Shown here: positions 8,744-44,387 of the stretch, one piece after another
Position numbering within the stretch: position 1 is the first letter of the stretch
How the letters are laid out: each line of letters opens with the position of its first letter
Assembly: GCA_021851325.1 (NCBI GenBank)
Contig: JAJZDZ010000002.1
Location: 124,001-188,000, forward strand
Length of the DNA stretch: 64,000 bases
Source of the DNA: Pseudomonadota bacterium
Lineage (GTDB): Bacteria > Pseudomonadota > Alphaproteobacteria > Micropepsales > Micropepsaceae
Reading direction: 5' to 3'
The notes under the pieces: model-generated
Told to the model about the DNA's origin: nothing
What the model saw: only the letters and a program-made list of their open reading frames with translations
Databases searched by the model: none
Made by a program: the position numbers and the translations under genes

Positions 8744-10315
8744 CTAGTTCACGTTGTCTGTGGAGCGGATGAAGGCCACCACATTCTTGTGCAGATGCTT
8801 CAGCGACGGGACATGGACATAAACCATGTGGCCCGACATGTAGTAGTGGTACTGGATGTTCTTGGTCAGGGACTGGGGGATGGAGAGGTGGTGCATCTCG
8901 TACCAGCCCTGATAGAAGACCGTGGCCAGGTCAAAATAACCGCCATTGACCATCACATGCAGGTCAGGGTTTGCCTTCATGGCGGCGGCAAGGTCCGGCA
9001 TCACATTGAGAGCCTGGGTCTTCTTGAAGGGATATCCCGGAGGCTGATGCAGGAAGTTCCAGTGCCCGATATTATGGGCATCCGGGCGGTAGGCAATTTT
9101 GCCGGTATAGCCTAGATCATCACGGACATAGGAATTGAACGCGGCCACATAGGCTGAACTGATCGCCGCGCTCTGGGGATCATAATAGGCAAATTCGCTC
9201 AGCGGATCCATTGAAGGACCAGAAAAGCGGGCATCGAGACGGCCGGTGGTCAAATCGTCGGCAATCTGCAACTCGTGACGGAACTGGCCGCCATTGACGC
9301 GCAAATCCGCGCGCATCAGATAGTCGACCGGCAAACCCGTGTAGAGGTGAAGCTGCTTGGCGACCGCGAGCTTTTCGGCGGCATCAAGGCTAGTGCCACG
9401 ATTGAGCGCCTCCGCATAGGTCGTCATCGCATAATGGGCGACGCGATGCAGGAATGCTGGCAGATCCTTTTGTGCGATGGGCTGGCCGGGCAGCTTGTGA
9501 TGATACCAGGCTACCGCCGCGTAGCTTGGCAGCGCGAGTTCGAACGGCCGGTCATTGCCCGGATTGCCCTTCGTCAGATCGATACTGTCAGAGTAATCGA
9601 GGATCTGGGAGAGGAGGATCACACCATTGAAATCGATGTTGTCGTCATTTTCCAGGATATTGATCAGCGCCGCAGAGCGTGGCGTACCATAGCTCTCACC
9701 GAACAGATATTTGGGCGAATTCCAGCGGTTGTACTTGCTCAGGAACTGCATGATGAAACGCGAAAAGGCATAGGCGTCAACATCGGTTCCGTAGAAATCC
9801 TTCTTGGCATTCTTGCCCGCGATCCGACCAAAGCCGGTCCCGGGCGCATCGACAAACACCAGATCTGAGGCGTCGAGGAGGCTATACTTATTGTTCACCA
9901 GCCCATAAGGCGCGGCTGGCGTGTGGGTGTGGTCGCCGGTCACTACACGCTTGGGGCCGAAGGCACCCATGTGAAGCCAGATGGTCGCCGAGCCCGGGCC
10001 GCCATTGTACAGGAAGGTGATCGGCCGACGCCCAGGATTGGCGCCCTTCTTGAAGTAGGCGACGTAGGACATCGAGGAAACCGCAGTGGGATTATTGTTT
10101 TTCTTTTCCTGCGGTGCATCGTCATAGCCTTTGGGATGCACGATCAGCGTACCGACCACGGCCTTGTAGTCGATTGTCTTGCCGCCGACGCGAACACTGC
10201 CCGATGAGACATAGTTCATCGGCTTGAGGAGTGCCGGTGCCGTCGCGGACGCACTGAGCATCCCGACACCCGGAACCATTACGGCTGCAAGCGCAGCCAG
10301 GGCCAAACGTTTCAT
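8744..10315 (-). CDS. Secreted S10 family serine carboxypeptidase (copy 1)
   Basis: 523 residues with a signal peptide (MKRLALAALAAVMVPGVG, cleavage near SASA-TAPA). S10 motifs are all present: oxyanion loop NGGPGSAT (about 104-111), nucleophile Ser208 in GESYG, Asp in NGGYFDLAT and the catalytic His in SGHMVYVH near the C-terminus. S10 enzymes remove C-terminal residues from peptides, usually at acidic pH, here presumably in the periplasm or outside. The ATG at 10315 was chosen over an upstream in-frame ATG because GGGGGATTGAT precedes it and it starts the signal peptide. It is a paralogue of the upstream gene and probably shares the cell compartment and substrate class. Confidence 0.92.
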   Translation of the reverse strand: MKRLALAALAAVMVPGVGMLSASATAPALLKPMNYVSSGSVRVGGKTIDYKAVVGTLIVHPKGYDDAPQEKKNNNPTAVSSMSYVAYFKKGANPGRRPITFLYNGGPGSATIWLHMGAFGPKRVVTGDHTHTPAAPYGLVNNKYSLLDASDLVFVDAPGTGFGRIAGKNAKKDFYGTDVDAYAFSRFIMQFLSKYNRWNSPKYLFGESYGTPRSAALINILENDDNIDFNGVILLSQILDYSDSIDLTKGNPGNDRPFELALPSYAAVAWYHHKLPGQPIAQKDLPAFLHRVAHYAMTTYAEALNRGTSLDAAEKLAVAKQLHLYTGLPVDYLMRADLRVNGGQFRHELQIADDLTTGRLDARFSGPSMDPLSEFAYYDPQSAAISSAYVAAFNSYVRDDLGYTGKIAYRPDAHNIGHWNFLHQPPGYPFKKTQALNVMPDLAAAMKANPDLHVMVNGGYFDLATVFYQGWYEMHHLSIPQSLTKNIQYHYYMSGHMVYVHVPSLKHLHKNVVAFIRSTDNVN

Positions 10316-10335
10316 ATCAATCCCCCGTTGAGGTG

Positions 10336-10374
10336 AAAAACCGACGCCGCACCCGTTCATGGATGCGGCGCCGG
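10336..10374 (-). terminator. Intrinsic terminator between the two S10 genes
   Basis: Arms 10341-10351 and 10364-10374 form an 11-base stem with one mismatch, followed on the minus strand by TTTTT. It lies 24 bases after the stop of copy 2 and ends 21 bases before the start of copy 1, so copy 1 needs read-through or its own promoter. Confidence 0.7.
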
Positions 10375-10397
10375 ATGCTATGCGCCAACTGGCGTCA

Positions 10398-12008
10398 CTA
10401 TTTGCTTTCGTTGTCGGTCTCACGAATAAACGCCGCTGCGTCCGCGTGCAGTTTCTCCGCCGCAGGCTCGTGGACGTAAATCATGTGACCGGTCTTGTAG
10501 TAATGGTACTGGATGTTCGCCTGCAGCCTGTTGGGGATCGGCAGGTGATGCATTTCGTACCAGCCTTCATAGAAGGGCGTCGCCAGATCGAAGTAGCCGC
10601 CACCCAGAAACACTTTCATGAGAGGGTCGCGCTTCATGGTGGCCGCCAGATCAGGCATCACATTGGTGGCACCCGGGAAGGAGAAGGCCTCGTAGGGTTG
10701 CTGGTGCTTGAAGGACCACCATTTGAAGACATTGATCATCGGCTTGTAGGTCATGCCTTTGCCGTAATGCAGCACGTTGTGCGCATAGTAGTTAAAGGCC
10801 GAAACATAGGCCGAGCTGATGGCAGCACTCTGCGGATCATATTCGGCGCTCTTGCTGAGCGGATCCATCGAGGGACCGGTGAAACGGGTATCGAGGCGCC
10901 CGGTGGTAAGATCTTCGTTCTGCAAAAGGTGCTTTTCGAAGACACCACCCGAAATGCGCAGGTTCGCGCGCATGATGAGGGACACCGGCAAACCCGTGAA
11001 CTGGTGCAGACGATTGGCGATATTGAGCTTGGCCTGCGGTGACAGGCTCGAGCCCTGATTCAAAGCTACCGCGTAGTCGCCCATGGCAAACTTCTCGGCA
11101 GCCTTGATCACCGGCATCAGATGCTGGGGGTTACCCGGCAGGACATGGTGATACCATGCCGTAGCGGCGAAGCTGGGCAGGGCCACTTCATAAGGCGTGT
11201 CGATGCCAGGATTGTTCTGTGGTCCATCGATGGACAGATCGAAATTGAGGATCTGGGACAGCAGAATGATGCCGTTCAGGTCGATGTTCTTTCTCTGCAG
11301 GTCCCACGACAGCACGGCTGAACGCGGCGTTCCATAGCTTTCGCCACAGAGATATTTGGGCGAATTCCAGCGATTGTATTTGGTCAGGAATTCTTCGATG
11401 AAATTGGCGAAGGCGTGGGCATCCTGGTCGACGCCATAGAACTCCTTCTCCTTGTTCTTTCCGGCAATGCGGGAATAGCCGGTTCCGGGCGCGTCGATGA
11501 ACACCATATCGGTAGCATCGAGCAGGCTGTTGTTATTGTTGACGATCTTATAGGGCGCGGCCGGGGTGTGGGTGTGGTCGTAGGTTACCACGCGCACCGG
11601 ACCGAAGGCTCCCATATGCAGCCAGACGGTCGACGAACCCGGGCCACCATTATAGAAGAAGGTAATGGGCCGCGAGCCCGGCTTCTCCCCCTTCTTGAAG
11701 TAAGCGACATAGAAGATCGAGGCTTCGGCATCCGGGTTTTTCGCCGCCTCAGCCTTGGACTGGGGAGCATCATCATAGCCCTGGGCGTGCACGACGAGCG
11801 TGCCGGCATGCGCGACATAATCGATCGTGTGGCCGTTGATTGTGACCGAACCGTTGGTGGTGGTTTCGGTCGGCTGGAAAAAGCCGTGGTTCTGGGCCGC
11901 GGCTGCTTTGGCTGCCGACGCCTTTGAACCTGAATCCGTGCTTGCCGATGCCGACACGATGGTGCCCGCGACCAGCACTGCCGCGGTAATAAGATAGGCC
12001 CGTTTCAT
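10398..12008 (-). CDS. Secreted S10 family serine carboxypeptidase (copy 2)
   Basis: 536 residues. Signal peptide MKRAYLITAAVLVAGTIVSA, then an Ala/Lys-rich linker (about 25-42). Motifs: NGGPGSST at about 120-127, nucleophile Ser224 in CGESYG, Asp in GGGYFDLATPF, His in TGHMIYVHE. It is clearly homologous to copy 1 along the whole length but differs in the N-terminal linker, suggesting an old rather than recent duplication. The start at 12008 is supported by GAGGGAG upstream; a longer in-frame reading to 12083 would remove the signal peptide from the N-terminus. It faces the Lrp/AsnC regulator across 268 bases that carry a palindrome. Confidence 0.92.
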   Translation of the reverse strand: MKRAYLITAAVLVAGTIVSASASTDSGSKASAAKAAAAQNHGFFQPTETTTNGSVTINGHTIDYVAHAGTLVVHAQGYDDAPQSKAEAAKNPDAEASIFYVAYFKKGEKPGSRPITFFYNGGPGSSTVWLHMGAFGPVRVVTYDHTHTPAAPYKIVNNNNSLLDATDMVFIDAPGTGYSRIAGKNKEKEFYGVDQDAHAFANFIEEFLTKYNRWNSPKYLCGESYGTPRSAVLSWDLQRKNIDLNGIILLSQILNFDLSIDGPQNNPGIDTPYEVALPSFAATAWYHHVLPGNPQHLMPVIKAAEKFAMGDYAVALNQGSSLSPQAKLNIANRLHQFTGLPVSLIMRANLRISGGVFEKHLLQNEDLTTGRLDTRFTGPSMDPLSKSAEYDPQSAAISSAYVSAFNYYAHNVLHYGKGMTYKPMINVFKWWSFKHQQPYEAFSFPGATNVMPDLAATMKRDPLMKVFLGGGYFDLATPFYEGWYEMHHLPIPNRLQANIQYHYYKTGHMIYVHEPAAEKLHADAAAFIRETDNESK

Positions 12009-12144
12009 GGAAGCTCCCTCTAAGGCAGGAAAGACGGCCCCCGGCCCGGCGGGACAAGACGAACGTCCACGAAGGCTTGCCACGGCATATCGGACTGCGG
12101 GAGTAACGCCCCTTGGCTCGGTTTTAGGGGAGGCCTTCTGCCCC

Positions 12145-17664: not shown

Positions 17665-20600
17665 CTACTCAGCAGGTTGGACCGCCTGAGCCGGCCTTAG
17701 CAGCTGCGCCAGACGGTCGAGCTGCACATAGATCACCGGAGTGATGTAAAGCGTCAGGAGCTGGCTGAGGACAAGTCCCCCGACCACCGCAAGACCGAGC
17801 GGGCGGCGGGAATTTGAGCCTTCACCGAACCCGATTGCAATCGGCAGGGTTCCCATCAGCGCCGCCATTGTCGTCATCATGATTGGCCGAAAGCGCACCA
17901 GACTGGCTTCGAAGATCGCCGCAGAGGCAGAGATCTGGGCGCTGCGCTGACGTTCCAGGGCGAAATCGATCATCATGATTGCATTCTTCTTCACGATTCC
18001 GATGAGCATGATCATGCCGACAAAGGCATAAAGGCTGAGTGGGGTATGGAACAGCCACAGCGTGATCAGTGCGCCGACCGCGGCAGCCGGCAAGCCTGAA
18101 AGAATGGTCAGGGGATGGATGAAGCTTTCGTAGAGAATGCCGAGTACGATGTAGACCACGATGATGGCGATCAGGAGCAGCAGCCCGCTTGATCCCATCG
18201 ACTGTTCAAAGGCTTTCGCCGTGCCCTGAAAGGAGCCCGAGATCGTCGGGGGCATGTGCATATGCCGGCTGATCTGATCGATCTTTGCGACCGCATAGGA
18301 TAGCGCCCTGCCCTGTGCGAGATTGAAGGACACGGTGACCGCCGGCAGTTCGCCAAGATGATTGATGGCCAGCGGCATGGAGCTCTGCGTGATCCGGGTC
18401 ACGGCGGAAAGAGGCACCAAGGTGCCGCTGCTGGAGGTGACATAGAGACGTTGCAGGGCCGAGGGATCGGTCTGGTATTTGGGCAAGAGTTCGAGAATGA
18501 CCTCGTACTCGTCGGTGGGTGCATAAATCTGCGAAATCTGTTCGCCACCGAAGGCTGCGCCAAGCGCGGTCTGGATTTGCGCCGGGGTCACGCCCAGTGC
18601 CGCCGCGCGGTCGCGCTGGATCTTGACCATCACGGTGGGATTGGACATGTCCAGATCGCTGTTGACATCGGCAAAGCCGGGGGTGCGCGAAAGGATGTCT
18701 ACCAGCCGATTGGCGTATTTGGCGAGTTGACCGAGGTTAAGACCCTCGAGCGTGTACTGATAGGTCGAGTTGGTTGCGTGTCCGCCGATGTTCAGGCTCG
18801 GCGGATTGGCGGTAAATACCTCGATGCCCGGAATCTTCGCGAACAGGGGACGCCACTGGGAAATGATATCGTCAACCGATCGCCGGCGCTGGCTGCGCGG
18901 GACGAGGTGGACAAAGATCCGACCGGTGTTAACTCCGGCACTGGACCCGCCCGAGCCCACCGCCGACATCGCGGCCATCACGGCCGGATCAGCGTTGACG
19001 ATAGCTGCCACCTTTTTCTGGTACCGGAGCATCTGATCAAAGGAGGTACCGGTCCGTGCCTTGGTAAAGATCGCGATGGCGCCGTTATCGGAGGCGGGGA
19101 TGAAATCCATCGGGATGATCCGGAACATGAAGACGGTTGCACCGATGCTCAGCAGGAAAAGCCCGAGAACCGTGCGCTGATGGCCCATGGCCCAATGGAG
19201 CGATTGGCGATAGGCGTCATGCAGGCGACTGAAGGCCGCCTCGCTGTAACGATAGAACCGGCTGGCATGCAGGCGCTCGTCCGCGCGCAGAAGGCGGCTG
19301 CAGAGCATCGGCGTCAGCGTCACCGACACGACGCCGGAAAACACGATGGCGAGGACGATCGTCACCGCAAACTCATGCAGCAGCCGACCGACAATGCCAC
19401 CCATGAACATCAATGGAATGAACACCGCCACGAGGGAGGCTGTCATGGACAGGATGGTGAAGGCGATTTCGCGCGAGCCATGGAGCGAGGCGGTATAGGG
19501 ATCTTCCCCCATCTCGATATGGCGCACGATATTTTCAAGCATGACAATGGCATCGTCGACAACAAAGCCGACCGATAGCGTCAACGCCATCAAGGACAGA
19601 TTGTCGAGGCTGAAGCCGAGATAGGACATGCCCGCGAACGTCCCGATCACGGCAATCGGCAAGGCCAGTGAGGGGATGAATGTCGCCGAGACCGAGCGCA
19701 GAAAGACGAAGATGACGAGGACAACGAGCACCGCGGCGATGCCAAGCGTCATCTGGACGTCGCGGACCGAAGCACGAATGGCCTGGCTGCGGTCAAAATG
19801 GACCATCACATGCAGTCCGGGCGGCACCTGCTTTTCGAAGCGGGGAAGAATTTTTCGGATCTCGTTGACAACCTTTATGGTGTTGGATCCGGGCTGGCGC
19901 TGGATCGCCAGCAGGATGGCAGGCTTGCCATTCTCGAAGCTCGCCTGACGGGTGTCCTGGACACTGTTGAGAACGCGGGCGACGTCTTCAATACGCACCG
20001 GCGCTCCATTGCGGTAGGCGATGATCTGGCGTGCGAATTGCCGGGCGTCGGTGAGTTGGCCATTGGCGTGGATCACGTCCGCCTGATGCGGTCCGTTAAG
20101 CGAGCCGGTCGCGGCATTGGAATTGGCATTGGCAGCGGCAGTTGCAACTTCGTTGATGCCAATGCCGCGGGCCGCCAGCTCGTCGGGATCGGCCTGAATG
20201 CGCACAGCATATTTCTGCTGGCCGTAAATATTGACCTGTGCGACGCCGTTCAGGGTTGAGAGCTGGCGGCCAAGCAGCGTCTCGGCATAGTAGTCAACCT
20301 GCGACAGGGGCATCGTCTCGGAGGAAACGGCCAGATACATGATGGCAGCGTCGGCCGGATTTTCCTTATGGATGGTCGGTGGATTGGGCATGTTATGCGG
20401 CAGGCGACCCAGCGTCGCCGATACGGCCGATTGCACGTCCTGGGCGGCCGCGTCGATGTTACGGCTTAGATCGAACTGGATGACGATCTCGGTCTGGCTC
20501 TGCGTGCTCGTCGAGGTCATCGACGAGATACCGGCGATGGTCGACAGTTCGCCTTCAAGCGGGGTCGCGACCGCACTGGCCATGGTGTCAGGATCCGCGC

Positions 20601-20757
20601 CGGGCAGGCTGGCACTGACCACGACGGTCGGGAAATCAACGTTCGGCAGGTCACTGACCGGTAGCTGGAAATAACCAAACAAACCGAAGATCACCAGCGC
20701 GACCATAAGAAGCGTGGTCATCACCGTGCGCCGGATGAATGGCTCCGAAATATTCAT
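17665..20757 (-). CDS. RND efflux permease (HAE1, MdtB/MdtC-like)
   Basis: 1030 residues, the normal length for a hydrophobe/amphiphile RND pump with 12 membrane helices and two large periplasmic loops. TM4 has VGFVVDDAIVMLENI with the proton-relay Asp pair, and TM10 has IGIVKKNAIMMIDFALERQ with the relay Lys. Similarity is highest to MdtB/MdtC/MuxB. Those pumps use two different permeases; only one is present here. The start overlaps the adaptor's stop by 4 bases (ATGA), so translation is coupled. No outer membrane factor gene is in the window; the pump must use one encoded elsewhere. Substrates are unknown. Confidence 0.93.
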   Translation of the reverse strand: MNISEPFIRRTVMTTLLMVALVIFGLFGYFQLPVSDLPNVDFPTVVVSASLPGADPDTMASAVATPLEGELSTIAGISSMTSTSTQSQTEIVIQFDLSRNIDAAAQDVQSAVSATLGRLPHNMPNPPTIHKENPADAAIMYLAVSSETMPLSQVDYYAETLLGRQLSTLNGVAQVNIYGQQKYAVRIQADPDELAARGIGINEVATAAANANSNAATGSLNGPHQADVIHANGQLTDARQFARQIIAYRNGAPVRIEDVARVLNSVQDTRQASFENGKPAILLAIQRQPGSNTIKVVNEIRKILPRFEKQVPPGLHVMVHFDRSQAIRASVRDVQMTLGIAAVLVVLVIFVFLRSVSATFIPSLALPIAVIGTFAGMSYLGFSLDNLSLMALTLSVGFVVDDAIVMLENIVRHIEMGEDPYTASLHGSREIAFTILSMTASLVAVFIPLMFMGGIVGRLLHEFAVTIVLAIVFSGVVSVTLTPMLCSRLLRADERLHASRFYRYSEAAFSRLHDAYRQSLHWAMGHQRTVLGLFLLSIGATVFMFRIIPMDFIPASDNGAIAIFTKARTGTSFDQMLRYQKKVAAIVNADPAVMAAMSAVGSGGSSAGVNTGRIFVHLVPRSQRRRSVDDIISQWRPLFAKIPGIEVFTANPPSLNIGGHATNSTYQYTLEGLNLGQLAKYANRLVDILSRTPGFADVNSDLDMSNPTVMVKIQRDRAAALGVTPAQIQTALGAAFGGEQISQIYAPTDEYEVILELLPKYQTDPSALQRLYVTSSSGTLVPLSAVTRITQSSMPLAINHLGELPAVTVSFNLAQGRALSYAVAKIDQISRHMHMPPTISGSFQGTAKAFEQSMGSSGLLLLIAIIVVYIVLGILYESFIHPLTILSGLPAAAVGALITLWLFHTPLSLYAFVGMIMLIGIVKKNAIMMIDFALERQRSAQISASAAIFEASLVRFRPIMMTTMAALMGTLPIAIGFGEGSNSRRPLGLAVVGGLVLSQLLTLYITPVIYVQLDRLAQLLRPAQAVQPAE

Positions 20758-28041: not shown

Positions 28042-29352
28042 TCAGGCGGAGCTGCGCAGGGCCTGGCCGTTGAGGCCCTCGGCCACCATCGCCGGCAGTT
28101 TGGTACCTGACAGAATGGCCCCTTGCAGCATCGCGTCGCGCAGATCCGCATCGACGAGGGTGGAGTAGCTGAGATCGGCGTTGTCGAGGCGGGCCCGACG
28201 AAGATCCGCCCCGCGCAGGTCGCAGTAGCGCAGTTGTGCGCCTTCCAGACGTACCGGCAGAAGCCGGTCATCGGCGATCAGGAGCGGGCCCAGCTTGGCA
28301 TCCCTGAGGTCGGCATTGTTGAAGCGTGCTCCGGCCAGATTGGCGCCGCGCAAATCTGCCCCGGAAAGTCGGGTGGCACGCAGGTCGGCGCCACTCAGAT
28401 TTGAGCCCTGCAGCGAACAGCCTTCCAGATTGAGACCGTAAAAGACGGCACGGGGCGCGATCAACGCTGTCAGGCTCCGAAATGACAGCGTTGTCAGTCC
28501 CCGCAGGTCAGCATCCGTCAGATCGGCCGGACTTCCCTCCCGACCGTCGGTTTCCGCCCAGCGTGTATGGGCATCCAGCTGCTCGCGCGCCGCAGTCATG
28601 GCGGCATCGAGGACCGCAGGCTTGAGGTCGGTGAGCACATTGGAAAGGTCAGCGCCATCAAACACGGTCATGGTCATGCGGGCGCCAACGAGCACGGCTC
28701 CCGACAGATCGGCCCCGGCCATGTTGCAGCCGGAGAGGTCTGCACCCTCCAGATTGGCGCCGCAAAGCCGTGCCTGGCGCAGATTGGCGCGGGTAAGCGT
28801 ACAGCCACGCATCACCGCATCGGTAAAGTCCGCCTGTAGTGCTACCACCCCGGTCATTTTGGCCCGCTCGAGATTGGCGGCATGAAGCATGGCCGCCGGC
28901 AGCTGGGACGGACCAATGTCGTGCTGCATCAGGCGCAGATTGCCGAAACGGTCCTTTTCGGCAATGGAGCCCTCGCGCAGATCACATTCATAAAGGTCGG
29001 CGCCAATCAGGTTGGCGCCGCGCAATGAGGCGCCGCGCAGGTCAGCGCGCCTGAGGCTTGCCCCTTCCAGGTTGGCCCGGCGCAGATCGGCGCCGAAAAA
29101 CGAACTCGAATCGAGGCGGGCTCCAGCCAGATTGACCTCCTCGAGAATCGCACCGGTGAAATCGGCATCGGCAAGATTGCGGCCTGACAGGTCAAGCCCG
29201 GAAAGATCACAGAAGGCAAAGACCGCGCGCGCCCCGCCCATCCGCCCGGCATAAAGCATCTCATGACGGGCAACAGCGGCCGTCGCAGTCTTCTGCGTCA
29301 GCTTTGAAAAGCGGATCTTGGTTTCGGGCACCATGGCTAACCGTAAGGGCAC
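28042..29352 (-). CDS. Pentapeptide-repeat protein
   Basis: 436 residues, most of them A(D/N)LxX repeats in two blocks (about 45-225 and 275-430), which fold as a right-handed quadrilateral beta-helix. A non-repeat segment of about 40 residues (around 235-275, with TAAREQLDAHTRWAETDG) splits the two blocks. Pentapeptide-repeat proteins include DNA gyrase protectors of the Qnr type and many proteins of unknown role; nothing here identifies the target. GTG at 29352 with AGGGGG five bases upstream is the best start; the alternative ATG at 29334 lacks a good site. No signal peptide. Confidence 0.88.
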   Translation of the reverse strand: MPLRLAMVPETKIRFSKLTQKTATAAVARHEMLYAGRMGGARAVFAFCDLSGLDLSGRNLADADFTGAILEEVNLAGARLDSSSFFGADLRRANLEGASLRRADLRGASLRGANLIGADLYECDLREGSIAEKDRFGNLRLMQHDIGPSQLPAAMLHAANLERAKMTGVVALQADFTDAVMRGCTLTRANLRQARLCGANLEGADLSGCNMAGADLSGAVLVGARMTMTVFDGADLSNVLTDLKPAVLDAAMTAAREQLDAHTRWAETDGREGSPADLTDADLRGLTTLSFRSLTALIAPRAVFYGLNLEGCSLQGSNLSGADLRATRLSGADLRGANLAGARFNNADLRDAKLGPLLIADDRLLPVRLEGAQLRYCDLRGADLRRARLDNADLSYSTLVDADLRDAMLQGAILSGTKLPAMVAEGLNGQALRSSA

Positions 29353-34111: not shown

Positions 34112-34141
34112 AAAAAAAGGGCGGGACAGGTCCCGCCCTTT
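34112..34141 (-). terminator. Terminator of TonB receptor 1
   Basis: GGGCGGGAC, a two-base loop and GTCCCGCCC form a perfect stem, followed on the minus strand by a run of seven T. The receptor stop is 52 bases upstream in the transcript. Confidence 0.85.
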
Positions 34142-34192: not shown

Positions 34193-37100
34193 CTAGAAGT
34201 TAAGCCCGAAGGTCACGCCGAAGGTCCGCGGGTCACCGTAGAACGCATTGGTGTAATTGCCCGAGGTAGCCGCGGTCAGATATTCGCCCGTGATATAATT
34301 GTTATCTAGGACGTTCTTGGCCCAGAGGCGCAGATACCAGGTGCCATCCGGAGAGTTCAGCTGGGATTGCAGGTTCATGACGTCATACGATGCAATCTTG
34401 TTGACCGCGCCATTGAAGACGCTGCCATACATGTCAGTCTGCCAGTAATAGTCGACCCGACTGACGAGATGATAATCGTTGGGCAGAGGCAGGGTGTACT
34501 GCGCACCGATGCTGATGGTGACGGGCGGCGTATTCTGCAGTTCATTACCCTTGAGGCTCTGCGGGACGCCGCCATAGGTGCCATTTACGGCTGGCGCGGT
34601 GGTCGAGAAGCCCTGGGCTGCCAATGCCTGCGCATAGGTTACGCCCGGCGCAATCAGCTTGTTGGGATTCATGCAGCTGCCGTATGCCGCATAAGGAATG
34701 CCCGAAGACGCCAGAGCGCCGACGCCTCCCGGAGGCGCGAAGAACAGGCCGCCGACGTTGGGCAGAGTGCCCGGCTTGGCGCCATTGTAGTAGAGGACGC
34801 AGTTCTCGCCGCCGGTTCCACTGATCGTCGCATCCTTGACGAGGAGGGCGTTGGCGTAGCCGTTTGTCGGGTTGCGCGGATTGATCGAAGACGAGTTGCC
34901 AATGCTGGTATTGGTGCTGGAGAAACCAAGGTTGAACTGCCAGCGGTTGGTCGGCGCCCACAATACCGTGCTTTCAACACCCCAGAGCTTGGCGTTGATG
35001 TTTTCGTTGACCGAGGTGTTGTTGACGATCTTCGAAACCTGCAGCCCGGTGTAGTTGTAGTACCAGATGTCACCATTGGCCTGCAGGTCACCACCCAGTG
35101 CGGTGTTCTTGGTACCGACTTCGAAGGCGTCGATGCTTTCCGGATTGTAGGAGGCCGGAACGCCGAGGCCCGGCTGAACGCCCGGATTGAACCCACCGGC
35201 CTTATAGCCACGGGCATAAGAGGCATAGAACAGGCTCTGGTCGGTGAAGGAGAGTTTCGGCGTGTAGTCGACCACCGCCCGACCGGTCCACTTGTCATAG
35301 GTGACCTGGTTAAACTGCCAGGCATCGTTCGGACCTACCGGCTGGTTGACACCGCAGCCCGCCGACGCGGCAGTTCCGGGCACCGAACCGTTGGCGCAGT
35401 TGAAGTCAATCTGACCCTGCGAGGCCAACGCCGCCATCGCCGCGTCCTCATTGGTGGACCCGATCGGGACCAGACCGGAGAGGAGTTCGATGCGGCCCTG
35501 CTGGTACTTCTGGTCCTCGGTCCAGCGCGCGCCGACCGTGAACTTCAACAGATGCGGGATCGCGGTGTAGTAGGCTTCCGCGTAAATGCCCTTGGACCTC
35601 AGGCGGTTAAGCTTGCCGTAGTTGTTGTAGTAACCCGGCCCGTAGATGCAGCCCGTGGTGCCGCAGAGCTGCGGTGCCGCCAGGCCCGCCAGACCACCGA
35701 GGATAATCGAAGGGTAATCAAGGGTATCGGTATTGACGAAATAATTGCCGTTGAGGTTCTGCTGCAAATAGTAGAAGCCCAGCATGCCATTGAGCGGACC
35801 GCTGAAGTGGGTGTTGAAGCGCCACTCCCCAGACCACTGCGTCGCCGCCCCGTTCGACTGGTCATAGGCCGCCAGCGAGTTCGAGAAGGTGTAATTGCCG
35901 CCGATCACGCCAAGATTGGTCGTGCCCGATATCGGCAGCTCATTGGGATGCGAGAAATAAGGCGCATAAATCGCGGCATACGCAGGCCCAGCGACATGGG
36001 CAAGTGTACCGAGGAAGACCGCCTTGGCTGTCGCCCAGGCGACCGGGTTGATCGTTACGCCGGGATTGTTGTTGTAGCTTTCCTGCGAGAAGACGCTGTT
36101 CTGGTCGTAGCCAAGGACCGCATCGGAATCGAGCCAGCTGGCCCAGGACTGATGCCAGGACAGGGCCAGGAAATTGTCCTGCGCGCGATAGGTCGGATCG
36201 AAGGTGGTGTAGATCTGGCGAGGATTGGCCGGGCTCGAGATACCTGAAGTCGGGGTCGTCGCCAGGTTGGTAAGGCCGAGCAGCGGCGCTAGGGCGCCAA
36301 GCGTGCCACCGAACGTCGTCGTCATCGCCTGGACCGATGAGGCGATGTATCCGAGGGTGGCGTTGCCGTTCACAGCACCGGTAGCGGATAGCGAATTCGG
36401 CAGACAGCCGAGGATGCCTGAGGGGTCGGTCGCGCACAGCTGCTTCTGCGAGCGCATGTGATTGTCGGATTCGCTCGAGAACTGTCCGGTGAAGTCGACC
36501 CGGGTTCTGGAGGTCGGCTCCCAGCGCAACTCGGTACGGATGGAGTACTGGTTACGGTTGTCCGGGTGGCTGTTATTGTAGAGGTTGTGGGTGTAGCCCG
36601 AGTGACGGACATAATCGCCGGCAATGCGCAGTCCGAGCTGGTCGGTGACCAAGGGAACGTTGACGAAGCCCTTGAACTGCATCAGGTCATAATTGCCGTA
36701 GGTGGCCTGCAGGTTGCTCGAGAAGCCCGTGAGGTCAGGCTTCGCCGCCACCACATTGACCACACCGCCGGTGGCACCGCGGCCATAAAGGGTCGACTGC
36801 GGTCCGCGCAGCACCTCGATGCGCTGCAGGTCGTAGAACGAGCCGTCGGCCAGGTTCGGGGCGGCCAGATAGACGTTGTTGAAGTTGATGGCGACGCCGG
36901 ATTCGGCGTCATAGCCCACGGCGGTGATGCCGATGCCGCGGATCTGGAAGTCGGAACCCGTGAAATTGCCCTTGGTGTAGCTGACACTGGGGGTGGCAAA
37001 CTGCAGATCGTTAAAGCGGGTGATCTGATGGGCCGAGAGATCGTGGGCGGTGAAGGCCGAGATGGCGATGGGAACGCTTTGAACGTTCTGACTGGTCTTC

Positions 37101-37219
37101 TGGGCGGTAACCACCACGGTTTCGATCTGGGCGAAGGCCGGTGCGGCCAGCATGGTGGTAAGAAGCAAGGCTGAGACAAACGCGGCGGACTGGGAGGTCC
37201 GAGTACCAAATCCCGACAT
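34193..37219 (-). CDS. TonB-dependent receptor 1 (duplicated copy)
   Basis: 1008 residues. Signal peptide (ALLLTTMLAAPAFA), TonB box IETVVVTAQK, plug domain with the conserved VLRGPQSTLYGRGATGGVVNVV, then a 22-strand barrel ending PRTFGVTFGLNF with C-terminal Phe. At 1008 residues it is much larger than classical siderophore receptors (700-800) and resembles the large receptors of Caulobacter and sphingomonads used for plant-derived or aromatic compounds. The substrate is unknown. The first 257 residues are identical to receptor 2, and identity falls in the barrel. AGGGGAC precedes the start. Confidence 0.93.
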   Translation of the reverse strand: MSGFGTRTSQSAAFVSALLLTTMLAAPAFAQIETVVVTAQKTSQNVQSVPIAISAFTAHDLSAHQITRFNDLQFATPSVSYTKGNFTGSDFQIRGIGITAVGYDAESGVAINFNNVYLAAPNLADGSFYDLQRIEVLRGPQSTLYGRGATGGVVNVVAAKPDLTGFSSNLQATYGNYDLMQFKGFVNVPLVTDQLGLRIAGDYVRHSGYTHNLYNNSHPDNRNQYSIRTELRWEPTSRTRVDFTGQFSSESDNHMRSQKQLCATDPSGILGCLPNSLSATGAVNGNATLGYIASSVQAMTTTFGGTLGALAPLLGLTNLATTPTSGISSPANPRQIYTTFDPTYRAQDNFLALSWHQSWASWLDSDAVLGYDQNSVFSQESYNNNPGVTINPVAWATAKAVFLGTLAHVAGPAYAAIYAPYFSHPNELPISGTTNLGVIGGNYTFSNSLAAYDQSNGAATQWSGEWRFNTHFSGPLNGMLGFYYLQQNLNGNYFVNTDTLDYPSIILGGLAGLAAPQLCGTTGCIYGPGYYNNYGKLNRLRSKGIYAEAYYTAIPHLLKFTVGARWTEDQKYQQGRIELLSGLVPIGSTNEDAAMAALASQGQIDFNCANGSVPGTAASAGCGVNQPVGPNDAWQFNQVTYDKWTGRAVVDYTPKLSFTDQSLFYASYARGYKAGGFNPGVQPGLGVPASYNPESIDAFEVGTKNTALGGDLQANGDIWYYNYTGLQVSKIVNNTSVNENINAKLWGVESTVLWAPTNRWQFNLGFSSTNTSIGNSSSINPRNPTNGYANALLVKDATISGTGGENCVLYYNGAKPGTLPNVGGLFFAPPGGVGALASSGIPYAAYGSCMNPNKLIAPGVTYAQALAAQGFSTTAPAVNGTYGGVPQSLKGNELQNTPPVTISIGAQYTLPLPNDYHLVSRVDYYWQTDMYGSVFNGAVNKIASYDVMNLQSQLNSPDGTWYLRLWAKNVLDNNYITGEYLTAATSGNYTNAFYGDPRTFGVTFGLNF

Positions 37220-37389
37220 GGAATGCGTCCCCTGTGTTTCGTAATTTTGGTATTTTTATTCCCGTGATACTTGGGGCCCCGCCAAATCTCAGCGGCCGCC
37301 CGTAAGCCTATGGAAGTCATGAAAGACTGGGCAAAGGAGGGGGGCACCGCAAGAGTGCGCAGCCGAAACCGGTTCGTATCTTCGGTCAG

Positions 37390-37407
37390 TGTTGCAGGAA
37401 TGTTGCG
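37390..37407. promoter_or_regulatory. Shared TGTTGC direct repeat upstream of TonB receptor 1
   Basis: TGTTGCAGGAATGTTGCG, two TGTTGC units with 11-base periodicity, lies 171 bases before the receptor start. The identical sequence lies 173 bases before receptor 2, although the surrounding DNA has diverged, which suggests selection. Confidence 0.45.
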
Positions 37408-37957
37408 CTGGGCGGCACGGCCCTAAAACGAGAAATTGCAACATAAATAACACATAGTGGCATGTGGTATACTACTTAAAATTGTCGATAAGAGCCGATC
37501 GCTTCCGGCACCCCAGGTGCACGACAAAAGCCGGTAACGAGCCCCGGTGGCGCGGCCTATGCCCAAAGGCGCACTTTGGGGCACGTTGGTGTAGAGCCAC
37601 TGCTGGGAAACATGTCACATCCCTGTTTGCTGTGCTGTTGGCATCGATCAGCTCGTTCAGACCCCGCGCGCATTCGAGGTCTCGCCTGGCACGTTCCGCT
37701 GCACCTGCCCGTCCCAAAGTCCCAGGGTCGGACGCAAGCGGCCGGATTGGTTCAGGCCTGTGGGCGTGCTGCGATCTGTGAAGAGCGAGACGAGCGCCGT
37801 TAGCGACGCGCCATGCGTCCGACGGTAAATCCGTACCGATCAACCCAGTCAAACTGCAATCCGGTTCTACCCTCGTCGCTGCAGCTTCGCTCTCAATACA
37901 CGGCGCTTCATTGCGCCGTTCGTTTCGGACCAGACGACACAGTGCGGCCACAGGCAG

Positions 37958-37986
37958 AAAAAAGGGCGGGACAAGTCCCGCCCTTT
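37958..37986 (-). terminator. Terminator of TonB receptor 2
   Basis: The same GGGCGGGAC stem as after receptor 1, with an AA loop and a run of six T on the minus strand. Confidence 0.85.
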
Positions 37987-37999
37987 GAAGCCTTCTCAA

Positions 38000-38022
38000 G
38001 TGGCACGACAGATGCGTGCCAC
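38000..38022 (-). repeat. Second hairpin in the 3' end of TonB receptor 2
   Basis: GTGGCACG and CGTGCCAC with the loop ACAGATG, identical to the element after receptor 1. Confidence 0.65.
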
Positions 38023-38035
38023 TTTTCACGCTGGC

Positions 38036-41000
38036 TTAGAAGTTAACCCCGAAGGTCACGCCAAAGGTCCGCGGATCGCCATAGAACCCGTTGGTATAGA
38101 GACCGGAGGTCGGGCTCGTGAGGTATTCGCCCGTCAGGTAATTATTGTCCATGACGTTCTTGGCCCAGATACGCAGATACCAGGTGCCATCCGGAGAGTT
38201 CAGCTGGGACTGCAGGTTCATGACATCGAACGCTGCGATCTTGTTGACCGCGCCATTGAAGACACTGCCATACATGTCAGTCTGCCAGTAATAGTCGACC
38301 CGACTGACGAGATGATACTCGTTGGGCAGAGGCAGGGTGTACTGCGCACCGATGCTGATGGTGACGGGCGGCGTATTCTGCAGTTCATTGCCCTTGAGGC
38401 TCTGCGGGACGCCGCCATAGGTACCGTTCACGCCTGGCGCGGTGGTCGAGAACCCTTGTGCGGCAAGAGCCTGCCCATAGGTTTCGCCAGGTGCGATCAG
38501 GGTATTGGGATTCATGCAGCTGCCGTATGCCGCATAAGGAATGCCCGAAGACGCCAGAGCACCGATGCCTCCCGGAGGCGCGAAGAACGTACTGCCAATA
38601 TTGGGCAAAGTACCCGGCGTGGCGCCATTGTAGTAGAGGACGCAGTTCTCGCCAGCGGTAGCACTGATCGTCGCATCCTTGACGAGGAGGGCGTTGGCAT
38701 AGCCGTTGGTCGGATTACGCGGATTGATCGAGGACGAATTGCCGATGCTGGTATTGGTGCTGGAGAAGGCAAGGTTGAACTGCCAGCGGTTGGTCGGCGC
38801 CCACAATACCGTGCTTTCAACACCCCAGAGCTTGGCGTTGATGTTTTCGTTGACCGAGGTGTTGTTCTCGATCTTCGAAACCTGCAGCCCGGTGTAGTTG
38901 TAGTACCAGATGTCGCCGTCGGCTTCTAAGGTTCCGCCCATCGCCATATTTTTGGTACCGACTTCGAAGGCGTCGATGCTTTCCGGATTGTAGGAGGCCG
39001 GAACGCCGAGGCCCGGCTGAATGCCCGGATTGAACCCACCGGCCTTATAGCCACGGGCATAAGAGGCATAGAACAGGCTCTGGTCGGTGAAGGAGAGTTT
39101 CGGCGTGTAATCGACCACCGCCCGACCGGTCCACTTGTCATAGGTGACCTGGTTAAACTGCCAGGCATCGTTCGGACCGGCCGGCTGGTTGACACCGCAA
39201 CTTGCGGCCGCCGGCGTGCCTGGCACCGAGCCGTTGGCGCAGTTGAAGTCTCTCTGGCCCTGCGCGGCCAACGCCGCCATCGCCGCGTCCTCGTTGGTGG
39301 TCCCGATCGGGATCAGACCGGAAAGGAGTTCGATACGGCCCTGCTGGTACTTCTGGTCCTCGGTCCAGCGTGCGCCGACCGTGAACTTCAACAGGTGGGG
39401 GATCGCGGTGTAGTAGGCTTCCGCGTAAATGCCCTTGGACCTCAGGCGGTTAAGCTTGCCGTAATTGTTGTAGTAACCCGGCCCGTAGATACAGCCACTG
39501 GTTGCACAGAGCGCGGGTGCGCCCAATCCGGCCAGGCCACCCAGCATGATCGCCGGGTAATCGAGGGTATCGGCGTTGACAAAATAATTGCCGTCGAGGT
39601 TCTGCTGCAAATAGTAGAAACCCAGCATGCCATTGAGCGGACCGCTGAAGTGGGTGTTGAAGCGCCATTCCCCAGACCACTGCGTCGCCGACCCGTTCGA
39701 CTGGTCGAAGGCCGCCAGCGAGTTCGAGAAGGTGTAATTGCCACCGACGATGCCAAGATTGGTCGTGCCCGATACTGGCAGCTCATTGGGCTGCGAGAAA
39801 TAGGGCGCGAAGAAGCCAGCATAAGTGGGACCAGCCACAGCATTGAGGGTGCCGAGGAAGACCGCCTTGGCCGTCGCCCAGTTGACCGGGTTAATCGTTG
39901 AGCCCGGTATGTTGTTGTAGCTTTCCTGGGAAAAGACGCTGTTCTGGTCGTAGCCGACGACCGCATCGGAATCGAGCCAGCTGGCCCAGGACTGATGCCA
40001 GGAGAGCGAGAGGAAGTTATCCTGAGCGTGGTAGGTGGGATTGAAGGTGGTGTAGATCTGCCACGGATTTGAGGGCAGCACCACGCCGGGCGGCAGGGTC
40101 GGGGTCGTCGACAGGTCCGTGATCCCCAGCAGTGAGGCTAGAGGCCCGAGGGTCGCGCCAAACGTGCTTTGCATCGCCTGTTTGGATGAGGCGATGAGGC
40201 CGAGCGTGGCATTGCCATTGACCGCCTGATTGGCCGACAGGGAGCCCGGCAGACAGCCGAGGATGCCTGAGGGATCGGTCGTACACAGCTGCTTCGTCGA
40301 GCGCATGTGATTGTCGGATTCGCTCGAGAACTGTCCGGTGAAGTCGACCCGGGTTCTGGAGGTCGGCTCCCAGCGCAACTCGGTACGGATGGAGTACTGG
40401 TTACGGTTGTCCGGGTGGCTGTTATTGTAGAGGTTGTGGGTGTAGCCCGAGTGACGGACATAATCGCCGGCAATGCGCAGTCCGAGCTGGTCGGTGACCA
40501 AGGGAACGTTGACGAAGCCCTTGAACTGCATCAGGTCATAATTGCCGTAGGTGGCCTGCAGGTTGCTCGAGAAGCCCGTGAGGTCAGGCTTCGCCGCCAC
40601 CACATTGACCACACCGCCGGTGGCACCGCGGCCATAAAGGGTCGACTGCGGTCCGCGCAGCACCTCGATGCGCTGCAGGTCGTAGAACGAGCCGTCGGCC
40701 AGGTTCGGGGCGGCCAGATAGACGTTGTTGAAGTTGATGGCGACGCCGGATTCGGCGTCATAGCCCACGGCGGTGATGCCGATGCCGCGGATCTGGAAGT
40801 CGGAACCCGTGAAATTGCCCTTGGTGTAGCTGACACTGGGGGTGGCAAACTGCAGATCGTTAAAGCGGGTGATCTGATGGGCCGAGAGATCGTGGGCGGT
40901 GAAGGCCGAGATGGCGATGGGAACGCTTTGAACGTTCTGACTGGTCTTCTGGGCGGTAACCACCACGGTTTCGATCTGGGCGAAGGCCGGTGCGGCCAGC

Positions 41001-41068
41001 ATGGTGGTAAGAAGCAAGGCTGAGACAAACGCGGCGGACTGGGAGGTCCGAGTACCAAATCCCGACAT
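38036..41068 (-). CDS. TonB-dependent receptor 2 (duplicated copy)
   Basis: 1010 residues with the same signal peptide, TonB box (IETVVVTAQK) and plug as receptor 1. Coding DNA at 40298-41068 appears base-for-base identical to 36449-37219. After that the proteins remain very similar but differ in patches, first at CLPGSLSANQAVNGNATLGL against CLPNSLSATGAVNGNATLGY and then in several barrel loops. Patchy differences in outer loops suggest that the two copies bind different ligands. The gene has its own leader (AGGGGGAG before the ATG) and its own terminator, so it is not simply co-transcribed with receptor 1. Confidence 0.93.
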   Translation of the reverse strand: MSGFGTRTSQSAAFVSALLLTTMLAAPAFAQIETVVVTAQKTSQNVQSVPIAISAFTAHDLSAHQITRFNDLQFATPSVSYTKGNFTGSDFQIRGIGITAVGYDAESGVAINFNNVYLAAPNLADGSFYDLQRIEVLRGPQSTLYGRGATGGVVNVVAAKPDLTGFSSNLQATYGNYDLMQFKGFVNVPLVTDQLGLRIAGDYVRHSGYTHNLYNNSHPDNRNQYSIRTELRWEPTSRTRVDFTGQFSSESDNHMRSTKQLCTTDPSGILGCLPGSLSANQAVNGNATLGLIASSKQAMQSTFGATLGPLASLLGITDLSTTPTLPPGVVLPSNPWQIYTTFNPTYHAQDNFLSLSWHQSWASWLDSDAVVGYDQNSVFSQESYNNIPGSTINPVNWATAKAVFLGTLNAVAGPTYAGFFAPYFSQPNELPVSGTTNLGIVGGNYTFSNSLAAFDQSNGSATQWSGEWRFNTHFSGPLNGMLGFYYLQQNLDGNYFVNADTLDYPAIMLGGLAGLGAPALCATSGCIYGPGYYNNYGKLNRLRSKGIYAEAYYTAIPHLLKFTVGARWTEDQKYQQGRIELLSGLIPIGTTNEDAAMAALAAQGQRDFNCANGSVPGTPAAASCGVNQPAGPNDAWQFNQVTYDKWTGRAVVDYTPKLSFTDQSLFYASYARGYKAGGFNPGIQPGLGVPASYNPESIDAFEVGTKNMAMGGTLEADGDIWYYNYTGLQVSKIENNTSVNENINAKLWGVESTVLWAPTNRWQFNLAFSSTNTSIGNSSSINPRNPTNGYANALLVKDATISATAGENCVLYYNGATPGTLPNIGSTFFAPPGGIGALASSGIPYAAYGSCMNPNTLIAPGETYGQALAAQGFSTTAPGVNGTYGGVPQSLKGNELQNTPPVTISIGAQYTLPLPNEYHLVSRVDYYWQTDMYGSVFNGAVNKIAAFDVMNLQSQLNSPDGTWYLRIWAKNVMDNNYLTGEYLTSPTSGLYTNGFYGDPRTFGVTFGVNF

Positions 41069-41240
41069 GGAATGCTCCCCCTGTGTTTCGTTATTTTGGT
41101 GTTTCTATTCCTCTGAATACTTGGGGCCCCGCCCAATCTCAGCGGACGCCCGTAAAGCCATGTAAGCAGTGGAAGAGTGAGCAAAGGCTCGTGACCCCGC
41201 AAGAGCGCTAGACCGAGACCAGTTCGCAATCTTCGGCCAC

Positions 41241-41346: not shown

Positions 41347-41379
41347 AAAAAAGGGGACGCCGGCAGCGCGGCGCCCCCT
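41347..41379 (-). terminator. Terminator of TonB receptor 3
   Basis: GGGG-CGCCG pairs with CGGCG-CCCC across a one-base bulge, with a run of six T following on the minus strand, 25-50 bases after the stop codon. Confidence 0.75.
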
Positions 41380-41399: not shown

Positions 41400-44387
41400 T
41401 CAGAAATTGGTGCCGATAGCGATACCGAAGGTACGCGGCGCGCCATAGAACACGTTGGTGTAGAGCCCGGAAGACGGGCTGGTCACATACATGCCGGTCA
41501 TGTTGTTGGCATCGAGCAGGTTTTTGACGAACCCGCGTACGTACCAGGTGTCGTCAGGCGAGTTCAGCTGCACCTGTGCGTCCATCTGCCCCCAGGCCGG
41601 AATACGATCCGCGGGATCATTGAAGACCGTCCCGTACATCGATGTCTGCCAGTAATAATCGACGCGACTGACGAGACGGTAGTCGTTCTTCAGAGGCATT
41701 GTGTACTGTCCTCCAACACTGAGCGTGAAGGAGGGCGTGTTCTGCAGCCTGTTGCCCTTCAGGTTTGTCGGTACGCCTTCATAGGTGCCATGCACGCTCG
41801 GGTCAGAAGTTGCGAAGCCCTGCGCGGCCAAGGCCTGACCATACGTCACACCCGGGGCGACCAGAGTGTTGGGATTCATGCAGCTGCCAAAGGTGGCATA
41901 CGGGATGCCCTGACTGGCAAGGCCACCAACGCCACCGGCCGGCGCAAAGAACAGTCCCCCGATATTGGGCAGGCTGCCCGGCGTCGCACCATTATAATAA
42001 AGTACGCAATTGGAGCCACCGGTGGCCGAAGGCGTCGCATCCTTGACGAGCAGCGCGTTCTGAAAGCCGTTGGTTGGATTGCGCGGATCAACGATGCCGG
42101 TATTGCCGATGCTGGTATTGGTCTGCGACAGGTTCAGGTTGAACTGCCAGGCACTGGTCGGAGCCCAGATGAACTGCCCTTCGACACCGTAAAGCTGCGA
42201 ATTGATGTTCTCGTTGACCGAGGTGTTGTCGACGATCTTCGAAACCTGCAGTCCAGTATAGTTATAGTACCAGATATCTGCATTGGCCTGCAGGTGGCCA
42301 TCCAGCGCCGTATTTTTGGTTCCAAGCTCATAGGCGTCGATGCTTTCTGGCTTGTAGCTCGCCTGCACGCCAAAGACGCCGGCCGGAATGCCCGGATTGA
42401 AGCCGCCCGCCTTGTAGCCACGCGCATAGGAGGCATAGAGGAGCGTCGCATCGGTGAAGTTGAGTTTGGGCGTATAGTTGACGACGAACCGACCCGTCCA
42501 CTTGCTGTAGGTCTGGTTCTGGATCTCAACCGGCTGGCTGCCCGGGCGCAACGGATCGTAATCGACCTTGCCGGCACTGGCGAGCTCGTCGATCGCGGAG
42601 TTCTCGCTTGTGGTCCCGATCGGAATGAGGCCGCTGTAAAGAGCAACACGCACCTGCTGCGCCTTGACATCCTGCGTCCAGCGCAGGCCGGCGGTGAATT
42701 TCAGCAGGTCAGGAATAGCGGTGTAGTAGACTTCGCCAAAGATCGCCTTGGACGTCAACGTGTCCGACATGCCATTTGAATGGTAGTAGCTCGGCCCATA
42801 GATGCAGCCGCTGACATGGCAGGCCGGATTGGCAAGGCCGCTCAAGCCACCCAGAATGATGCCGGGATAATCAAGCGTATTGGCATTCACGTAATAGTCG
42901 CCGGTGGTGTGGGTGTGCAGATAGTAGCCTGCCAGCATACCGTTGACCGGTCCGCTGAAATGCGTGTTGAAGCGCAGCTCTGCGGAATATTGCGAGGCTG
43001 CGCCGTCGGACTGGTCGAAGGCAAACACATTGGGTGAGTAGCCCGCGATGTTACCACCAGTGATACCAAGATTGCCGACGCCAGAGGTCGGAAGCATGCC
43101 GGGGTGACTGAAGAACGGCGTATAGAAGGAGGCGTAGGTGGGGCTACCTCCAAACAGGGGATTGCTGATGATCCCGAGAAAAGTCTGTTCCGCGGTCGCA
43201 AGCCTTGCCTGGTTAAGCGGCAGACCGGGAATGTTGTTGTAGCTCTCTTGGCTCCAGACTGAGTTGTGATCGGTGCCCAGCACCAGGGTCGAATCGAGCC
43301 AGCTGGACCAAGACTGCTTCCACTGGCCCGACAGGAACATGTCCTGCGCACGATAAAGAGGATTGAACGGCGCCGAGACCTGGCGCGCTCCAGCTGGATC
43401 AACGTAGCCAGCGGGCAGAACCGGTGCGCTGGCAAGATCAAAGAGGCCGAGCGCATTGCCAATTCCAGCCAGCGGCGTCCCTGCGAAAGCGGCGTTAAGA
43501 CCCTGGATCGAAGAAGTAATCGTGGACAGGTTGGAATTGAGATTGACCGGCTGGTTGGTCAGGTAATCGGGAAGGCAGCCCAGAACGCCGGTGGGATCGG
43601 TGTGGCAGAGCTGCTTCTGCGACCGCATCCGGTTGTCGTTTTCATTGGTGATTTGGCCCACCAGATCAATCGTGGTCCGGGAGGTCGGGGTCCAGCGCAA
43701 GGAGCTGCGCAGCGAATAGACATCCTGATTGTCGATGTGGCTGTGGTTCAGGACGTTGGTGGTATAGCCCCCATGGCGAGTCCAGTCGCCTGCAATTCGC
43801 AGCGCCAGCTTGTCGGTAACGATCGGAACGTTGAGGAAGCCTTTGAGTTCGGTCGCATCATAATTGCCATAAGACGCCTGGAGATGCCCATAAAAGGCCG
43901 ACGGATCTGCCTTGGAGCTGATCACATTGACGACGCCGCCCGTGGCACCGCGTCCATAGAGTGTCGACTGGGGTCCGCGCAGAACCTCGATCCGCTGCAG
44001 GTCGTAGAAGGTCGATTCAGCCAGCAGCGGCGTGGCCAGATAGACATTGTCCATATTGATGGCCACGCCGGATTCGGCGTCATAACCGACCGAAGAGACG
44101 CCGATACCGCGGATCTGAAAGTCCGATCCGGTGAAATTGCCCTTGGTGTAGGTCACGTCGGGGGTGGAAAACTGCAGATCCTGGAATTGGGTGATCTGAT
44201 GGGCGGCAAGATCCTTGGCCGACAGGGCGGTCATGGCGATCGGAACGCTCTGCGCGTTTTGGGTCCGCTTTTGGGCCGTCACCACGATCTGCTCAATCTG
44301 GGCGAAAGCTGGCGCGGCAATGGCCGTGGTCAGAAGCAATGCACTCACAAAGGTCAGAGGCCGAACCGGCCGACGCAACGCTGACAT
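41400..44387 (-). CDS. TonB-dependent receptor 3
   Basis: 995 residues. Signal peptide (FVSALLLTTAIAAPAFA), TonB box IEQIVVTAQKRTQN, plug with VLRGPQSTLYGRGATGGVVNVI, barrel ending PRTFGIAIGTNF. It is homologous to receptors 1 and 2 throughout but clearly more diverged, so it is probably the older member of the array. GGGGGATTATTGA precedes the ATG. Its promoter region is the very AT-rich stretch at 44500-44640. No TonB-ExbBD, sigma/anti-sigma regulator or substrate catabolic gene is adjacent. Confidence 0.93.
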   Translation of the reverse strand: MSALRRPVRPLTFVSALLLTTAIAAPAFAQIEQIVVTAQKRTQNAQSVPIAMTALSAKDLAAHQITQFQDLQFSTPDVTYTKGNFTGSDFQIRGIGVSSVGYDAESGVAINMDNVYLATPLLAESTFYDLQRIEVLRGPQSTLYGRGATGGVVNVISSKADPSAFYGHLQASYGNYDATELKGFLNVPIVTDKLALRIAGDWTRHGGYTTNVLNHSHIDNQDVYSLRSSLRWTPTSRTTIDLVGQITNENDNRMRSQKQLCHTDPTGVLGCLPDYLTNQPVNLNSNLSTITSSIQGLNAAFAGTPLAGIGNALGLFDLASAPVLPAGYVDPAGARQVSAPFNPLYRAQDMFLSGQWKQSWSSWLDSTLVLGTDHNSVWSQESYNNIPGLPLNQARLATAEQTFLGIISNPLFGGSPTYASFYTPFFSHPGMLPTSGVGNLGITGGNIAGYSPNVFAFDQSDGAASQYSAELRFNTHFSGPVNGMLAGYYLHTHTTGDYYVNANTLDYPGIILGGLSGLANPACHVSGCIYGPSYYHSNGMSDTLTSKAIFGEVYYTAIPDLLKFTAGLRWTQDVKAQQVRVALYSGLIPIGTTSENSAIDELASAGKVDYDPLRPGSQPVEIQNQTYSKWTGRFVVNYTPKLNFTDATLLYASYARGYKAGGFNPGIPAGVFGVQASYKPESIDAYELGTKNTALDGHLQANADIWYYNYTGLQVSKIVDNTSVNENINSQLYGVEGQFIWAPTSAWQFNLNLSQTNTSIGNTGIVDPRNPTNGFQNALLVKDATPSATGGSNCVLYYNGATPGSLPNIGGLFFAPAGGVGGLASQGIPYATFGSCMNPNTLVAPGVTYGQALAAQGFATSDPSVHGTYEGVPTNLKGNRLQNTPSFTLSVGGQYTMPLKNDYRLVSRVDYYWQTSMYGTVFNDPADRIPAWGQMDAQVQLNSPDDTWYVRGFVKNLLDANNMTGMYVTSPSSGLYTNVFYGAPRTFGIAIGTNF

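Follow-up and report, generated by a model that had tools for sequence, protein, structure and literature searches.

Segmental copying between paralogous genes is a kind of event already known in bacteria. In Helicobacter pylori, homA and homB encode outer-membrane paralogues that are 90% identical, one segment evolving in concert and another diverging, a pattern that the available portion of the source attributes to gene conversion (PMC2795765) and alongside which babA/babB is cited as a demonstrated case. For FpvA, the pyoverdine receptor, the available part of a second source places the regions that best discriminate between receptor groups in or near the plug (PMC11444679). Here, we describe a tandem array of TonB-dependent receptors in an alphaproteobacterial genome of the family Micropepsaceae (assembly GCA_021851325.1). 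The array lies in a 64,000-nucleotide stretch of contig JAJZDZ010000002.1 (positions 124,001 to 188,000; hereafter, the window), and two of its receptors, R1 and R2, share an identical 5' segment between diverged flanks. It is highly probable that this identity arose through recent segmental copying between older tandem paralogues, probably from R1 to R2. The instance is new and well supported.

The array consists of three genes arranged head to tail on the minus strand, in the order R3, R2 and R1. R1 (34193..37219, 1008 aa) is the probable donor and R2 (38036..41068, 1010 aa, 91% amino acid identity to R1) the probable recipient. R3 (41400..44387, 995 aa, 65% amino acid identity to R1) is a more distant third tandem copy that lies outside the identical segment and was absent from the initial annotation of this DNA. 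The plug domain PF07715 scored above the cut-off in R1, R2 and R3 (E-values of 1.9e-15, 5.8e-16 and 3e-16, respectively). Pfam gives the plug alone and no 22-strand barrel domain, and the best stretches of 20 PDB sequence matches fall within residues 30-252. Close to the receptor N-terminus lies IETVVVTAQ, which we take to be TonB-box-like.

The overall DNA identity of R1 and R2 is 90%, unevenly spread. An exact run of 778 bp on the minus strand (36449..37226 in R1 and 40298..41075 in R2) covers 7 bp upstream of the ATG and codons 1-257, that is, the N-terminus, the plug and the residues that directly follow it. The first 771 coding bases (36449-37219 and 40298-41068) are the same at 771 of 771 positions, silent ones included, as had been noticed in the initial annotation. 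Within this block, none of the 188 silent and none of the 583 replacement sites differs, whereas 170.3 of 545 silent sites (31.3%) and 111.7 of 1708 replacement sites (6.5%) do so in the rest of the gene (Fisher's exact test for silent sites, p ~4e-26); the 95% upper bound for the silent difference within the block is 1.6%. In a GENECONV-like permutation based on the 474 sites variable among R1, R2 and an outside orthologue, Q (described below), the longest run shared by R1 and R2 spanned 70 sites, compared to at most 20 in 10,000 shuffles. The block DNA finds R3, at 74%, as its next match in the genome after R1 and R2, and a search with the full gene agrees.

Both flanks of the block have diverged. 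In an ungapped alignment of the downstream side, R1 and R2 differ at 24 of the first 100 bases and at 53 of the first 200. Upstream, 10 of the 76 columns next to the block differ in a gapped alignment (9 mismatches and 1 gap, ~13%), and the next 50 columns contain 16 mismatches. The identity was thus correctly described as ending on both sides, but the sharp drop proposed for both ends does not hold upstream, where the divergence is real yet graded. With this graded side, the locus has the configuration of ectopic gene conversion between paralogues, near-identity that includes silent sites between diverged homologous flanks.

Such a block could be old and simply constrained, or the whole gene could have been duplicated recently, and an orthologue from outside the genome separates these readings. 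We searched 69 genomes of the genus, counting that of the window itself, and obtained matches at E<=1e-100 in 27. Of the 26 such genomes other than the window's own, 17 supplied the receptor regions analysed here, and nine were left aside. A close relative, Q, was found in only one other genome among the 69 (G005, from a sister species), with 89% amino acid identity to R2, and the next-best relatives reached at most 65%. Q is also the gene in record JAGWRJ010000091.1, from the metagenome-assembled genome of Alphaproteobacteria bacterium isolate REEB323 (L038:43-3075); a contig search of the named collection returned this one true relative and one trivial match at 30% (L039). Q occupies the syntenic place of R1, with a collinear flank of 7.9 kb after both genes at 80% identity, and a second contig of G005 (C925) carries the orthologue of the 5' part of R3 and the genes beyond it.

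Q differs from the block at 27.9% of silent and 3% of replacement sites. Silent sites within the block can therefore change freely, and the identity of R1 and R2 there is recent. The R1-Q silent difference is equal in the block and in the rest of the gene (0.279 and 0.280), while the R1-R2 and R2-Q values in the rest are 31.3% and 36.2%, respectively. Purifying selection acting on silent sites as well could, in principle, have kept the two plugs identical without any copying, and within the family the plug is indeed better conserved than the rest (mean column conservation of 0.70 and 0.59, respectively). The changes accumulated by Q, together with a silent difference of 58% between the R3 plug and the block, refute this explanation and leave it with practically no probability. 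Antisense open frames that overlie the block (36458-37174 and 40307-41023) were also considered as a cause of the identity and rejected, given the free silent change in Q.

A tree built from the DNA of the rest of the gene (10 rows) grouped R1 with Q, leaving R2 outside, with support values of 92/94. Forcing R1 and R2 into a clade cost 21.1 units of log-likelihood (lnL) and was rejected by the approximately unbiased (AU) test (p=0.003). Sites polarised with R3 gave counts in the same direction, with 62 uniting R1 and Q, 31 uniting R1 and R2, and 31 uniting R2 and Q. Since R3 is near silent-site saturation, these counts are weak and we place the main weight on the DNA tree. The grouping of R1 with Q and the rejection of R1+R2 indicate that R2 split off before R1 and Q separated, so that, as judged with an orthologue from one outside genome, the paralogues are older than the copied tract. 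A recent simple tandem duplication followed by fast divergence of the barrels would agree with the tandem arrangement and the 90% overall identity, but it is refuted by barrels that differ at 31% of silent sites and by the rejected R1+R2 clade, and it retains hardly any credibility. The preference of the initial annotation for a recent copy between two older paralogues over a single recent duplication is borne out, and both the silent divergence along a base-by-base alignment, which is far from uniform, and the same locus in a relative support it.

Several observations weigh against recent copying between R1 and R2 or loosen parts of the argument for it. The outside reference rests on one other genome, in which the R2 orthologue is unassembled, the contigs ending 42 bp upstream of the Q start codon and inside R3. 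A sister grouping of R2 and Q in the rest of the gene cost 12.4 lnL and withstood the AU test (p=0.108), support for R1 with Q in the protein tree is weak (83/56), and the saturation of R3 weakens the site counts. Moreover, the synonymous divergence (dS) of R1 and Q is 0.35, well under that of seven neighbouring genes (0.88-2.17) and of the 5' part of R3 (0.76) in the same pair of genomes, and conversion within the array leaves this low value unexplained. R1 has the strongest codon bias, that is, the lowest effective number of codons (ENC), among the 29 window genes examined, which may account for part of it; exchange between lineages is another possible source.

The copying would have proceeded as follows. 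R1 and R2, as tandem paralogues, would have separated before the split of R1 and Q. Later, in the lineage of the window, homologous recombination, by gene conversion or an equivalent double exchange, would have copied a tract of 778 bp or more, which begins slightly upstream of the start codon and extends through codon 257, most likely from R1 onto R2. Two features of the sequence favour R1 as the donor without proving it. The silent distance between the block and Q equals that of R1 and Q in the rest of the gene and is below that of R2 and Q (0.279 compared to 0.362, p=0.047), and the codon bias of the block (ENC 37.3) resembles that of the R1 barrel (37.6), with the R2 barrel at 43.7. The molecular route that we infer is RecA-type exchange between direct repeats; any advantage that the copying conferred would likewise be inferred. 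The barrels probably became a mosaic through similar exchanges that were earlier or shorter.

The initial annotation had taken the variable barrel loops to suggest that ligand-binding regions are diverging; that the barrel differences are simply diverging loops is not supported by the silent sites. Across 25 windows of 30 codons, the R1-R2 silent difference ranged from 0 to 0.75 (chi-square 124.5, 24 degrees of freedom), with a variance 5.2 times the expectation, and it correlated with the replacement difference (rho 0.77). If selection on loops were the only cause, silent divergence should be even along the gene, and the silent sites are as uneven as the replacement sites. R1-Q windows were more even, albeit not wholly (chi-square 43.1, p=0.01, rho 0.58). 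A two-state hidden Markov model (HMM) of the rest of the gene gained 88.8 lnL over one state, compared to at most 22.5 in 60 codon shuffles; such shuffles do not retain differences in constraint between parts of the gene, and these differences could account for some of the gain, which to that extent speaks less clearly for recombination. Family conservation was only weakly related to R1-R2 silent divergence (rho -0.34, p=0.10), and gap fraction modestly so (rho 0.41, p=0.04). AlphaFold2 models of four sequences had a predicted local distance difference test (pLDDT) score of 24, too low for mapping loops, and the divergent patches are at most candidate extracellular loops. Taken as a pattern of substitutions, the barrel is probably a recombination mosaic.

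A second, older or shorter tract of probable conversion was located in R1 (35108..35335, minus strand; R1 codons 629-704, alignment codons 636-712), where informative sites comprise 15 shared by R1 and R2 only, 1 by R1 and Q, and 1 by R2 and Q. A scan statistic for sites shared only by R1 and R2 was significant at alignment codons 630-699 (P=0.0018; third positions 0.0022). These counts suggest that exchange between the copies probably took place more than once. Runs of sites shared by R1 and Q in the rest of the gene clustered no more than expected by chance (P=0.27). Most of the 28 tracts listed by the HMM are small and contain few informative sites, and we do not claim these as separate events. 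Q itself (L038) is R2-like at alignment codons 325-337 (P=0.0004 for all positions; third-position scan P=0.46), a hint that exchange may have occurred in the sister lineage too.

The mirror image of the proposed copying would also yield identity in one part of the gene and old divergence in another. There, the whole gene would have been duplicated recently and the barrel of one copy subsequently exchanged for an allele of a different lineage, which would make the identity original and the difference imported. The unusual closeness of R1 and Q relative to their seven neighbours makes transfer between lineages thinkable in this array. At least two replacements would, however, be required, as the DNA upstream of position -7 has diverged too, although a recent tandem duplication ought to leave identical flanks. 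The donor, moreover, would have to be R2-like and older than the R1/Q split, and the R2-like tract in Q hints that R2 already existed in that lineage. We regard this scenario as improbable.

An error of assembly is the remaining alternative to recent copying from R1 to R2, with a short-read consensus, gap filling or polishing having put one plug in both genes. The assembly is a draft of 103 contigs, which counts in favour of such an error, and near-identical sequence does trouble it elsewhere, where two contig ends overlap over 544 bp at 98%. The window, however, contains zero N, no orphan R2-type plug was found elsewhere in the assembly, and the gene order at both ends of the array agrees with that of G005. 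By reasoning, a two-copy direct repeat allows only one linear path that uses both barrels. Smoothing of assembly bubbles could remove a few differences, but the 50-60 silent differences expected are too many for it to erase. Such smoothing on a small scale is possible; creation of the whole block by assembly is unlikely, and the error as an explanation is very improbable. The overlapping ends mentioned above, L090:1-544 (the start of C98) and L091:2244-2787 (the end of C63), extend across the plug of another receptor, a situation that strain variation or a second repeated plug could produce in a draft or metagenome assembly. The whole genome has 25 plug-domain matches, of which the two on these contig ends may be one gene.

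We also considered whether plugs are homogenised as a standing process, as the initial annotation implied in describing the energy-coupling part as held uniform. The R3 plug shares 158 of 227 residues with the R1/R2 plug and has thus not been homogenised. Five of the 17 other genomes (G029, G033, G063, G072 and G080) had at least two receptor copies on one contig. A base-by-base scan of six of their seven within-genome pairs (the pair G063_2/G063_3 being left out) revealed no recent copying, the longest exact run being 32 bp, in G029. At the protein level, plug identity exceeded the barrel-based expectation with z values of 1.7-2.7 in five of the seven pairs; the remaining two gave 0.17 and -0.77. 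Pairs formed between the genomes G033, G072 and G080 showed an excess equal to that of the within-genome pairs, indicating that the excess is either old or just characteristic of the clade; the G029 pair (z 2.67) is without a close comparator. R1 and R2 themselves reach a z of only 1.81, because identity is capped at 100%. Standing concerted evolution of plugs is, therefore, unsupported in these five arrays. A broader proposal, which we consider doubtful, is that the array acts as a recombination workshop, in which repeated exchange between neighbours homogenises the plug and strand segments, a few ligand-facing islands escape, and receptors of new specificity thereby emerge as mosaics built on a common energy-coupling chassis.

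The surroundings of the array were inspected for its substrate, which none of the neighbouring genes names. The genes to one side encode an autotransporter and a pentapeptide-repeat protein, among others; those to the opposite side include genes for a rhomboid protease, an FAD-dependent oxidase and an OPT transporter. An Rfam scan of the window for a riboswitch that would tell the substrate gave 0 matches at the gathering threshold, and the seven intergenic small open reading frames (ORFs) examined in the array had no Pfam match. Terminator-like hairpins were found by a pattern scan after R1 (34116..34141, minus strand), R2 (37969-37983, shorter) and R3 (41352-41379), and their positions suggest that the three genes may be transcribed separately; the scan returned 23 sites compared to a shuffle mean of 10.9, so any single site is weak evidence.

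Other features of the window deserve mention. The pentapeptide-repeat protein near the array (28042-29352) is large, and a secreted pentapeptide protein is tied to outer-membrane traits in Caulobacter, according to the available part of the source (PMC12864828). An AcrB-type efflux gene (17665-20757) lies ~13 kb from R1. In G022, G029, G033 and G011 (L042, L043, L044 and L045), the receptor is found ~0.1-1.5 kb from DNA matching this efflux gene, and this difference in distance suggests that the intervening stretch was inserted or rearranged in one lineage. A tandem pair of Peptidase_S10 genes (serine-carboxypeptidase-like; 8744-12083) shares ~75% DNA identity over its best segment, and the listed ORFs overlap by 26 bases.

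As an example of recent segmental copying among the nutrient receptors of an alphaproteobacterial genus, the locus is a clean one, and an orthologue separates conversion from duplication. It also calls for caution, as trees or specificity predictions based on the plug only would misplace such receptors. If a mosaic barrel proves general, it would provide a route for the diversification of TonB receptors. Among the titles and abstract openings listed in a literature search, none reports conversion between TonB-receptor paralogues, which does not establish its absence from print.

As far as the available portions of the sources go, homA/homB is a close parallel, with two 90% identical outer-membrane paralogues, one segment homogenised and the other diverged. 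There, however, the segment is at the 3' end and the pattern extends across 24 strains, whereas here it is the 5' plug segment, with one main event in one genome. With FpvA, as described in the accessible text, R1 and R2 share a plug followed by a barrel, and segments of unequal power to discriminate between receptor groups. The variation in FpvA is between strains and species, while the exchange proposed here is between tandem copies within one genome, and the discriminating regions of FpvA are located within or close to the plug, the part common to R1 and R2. Given that location, copying of the plug may alter more than energy coupling.

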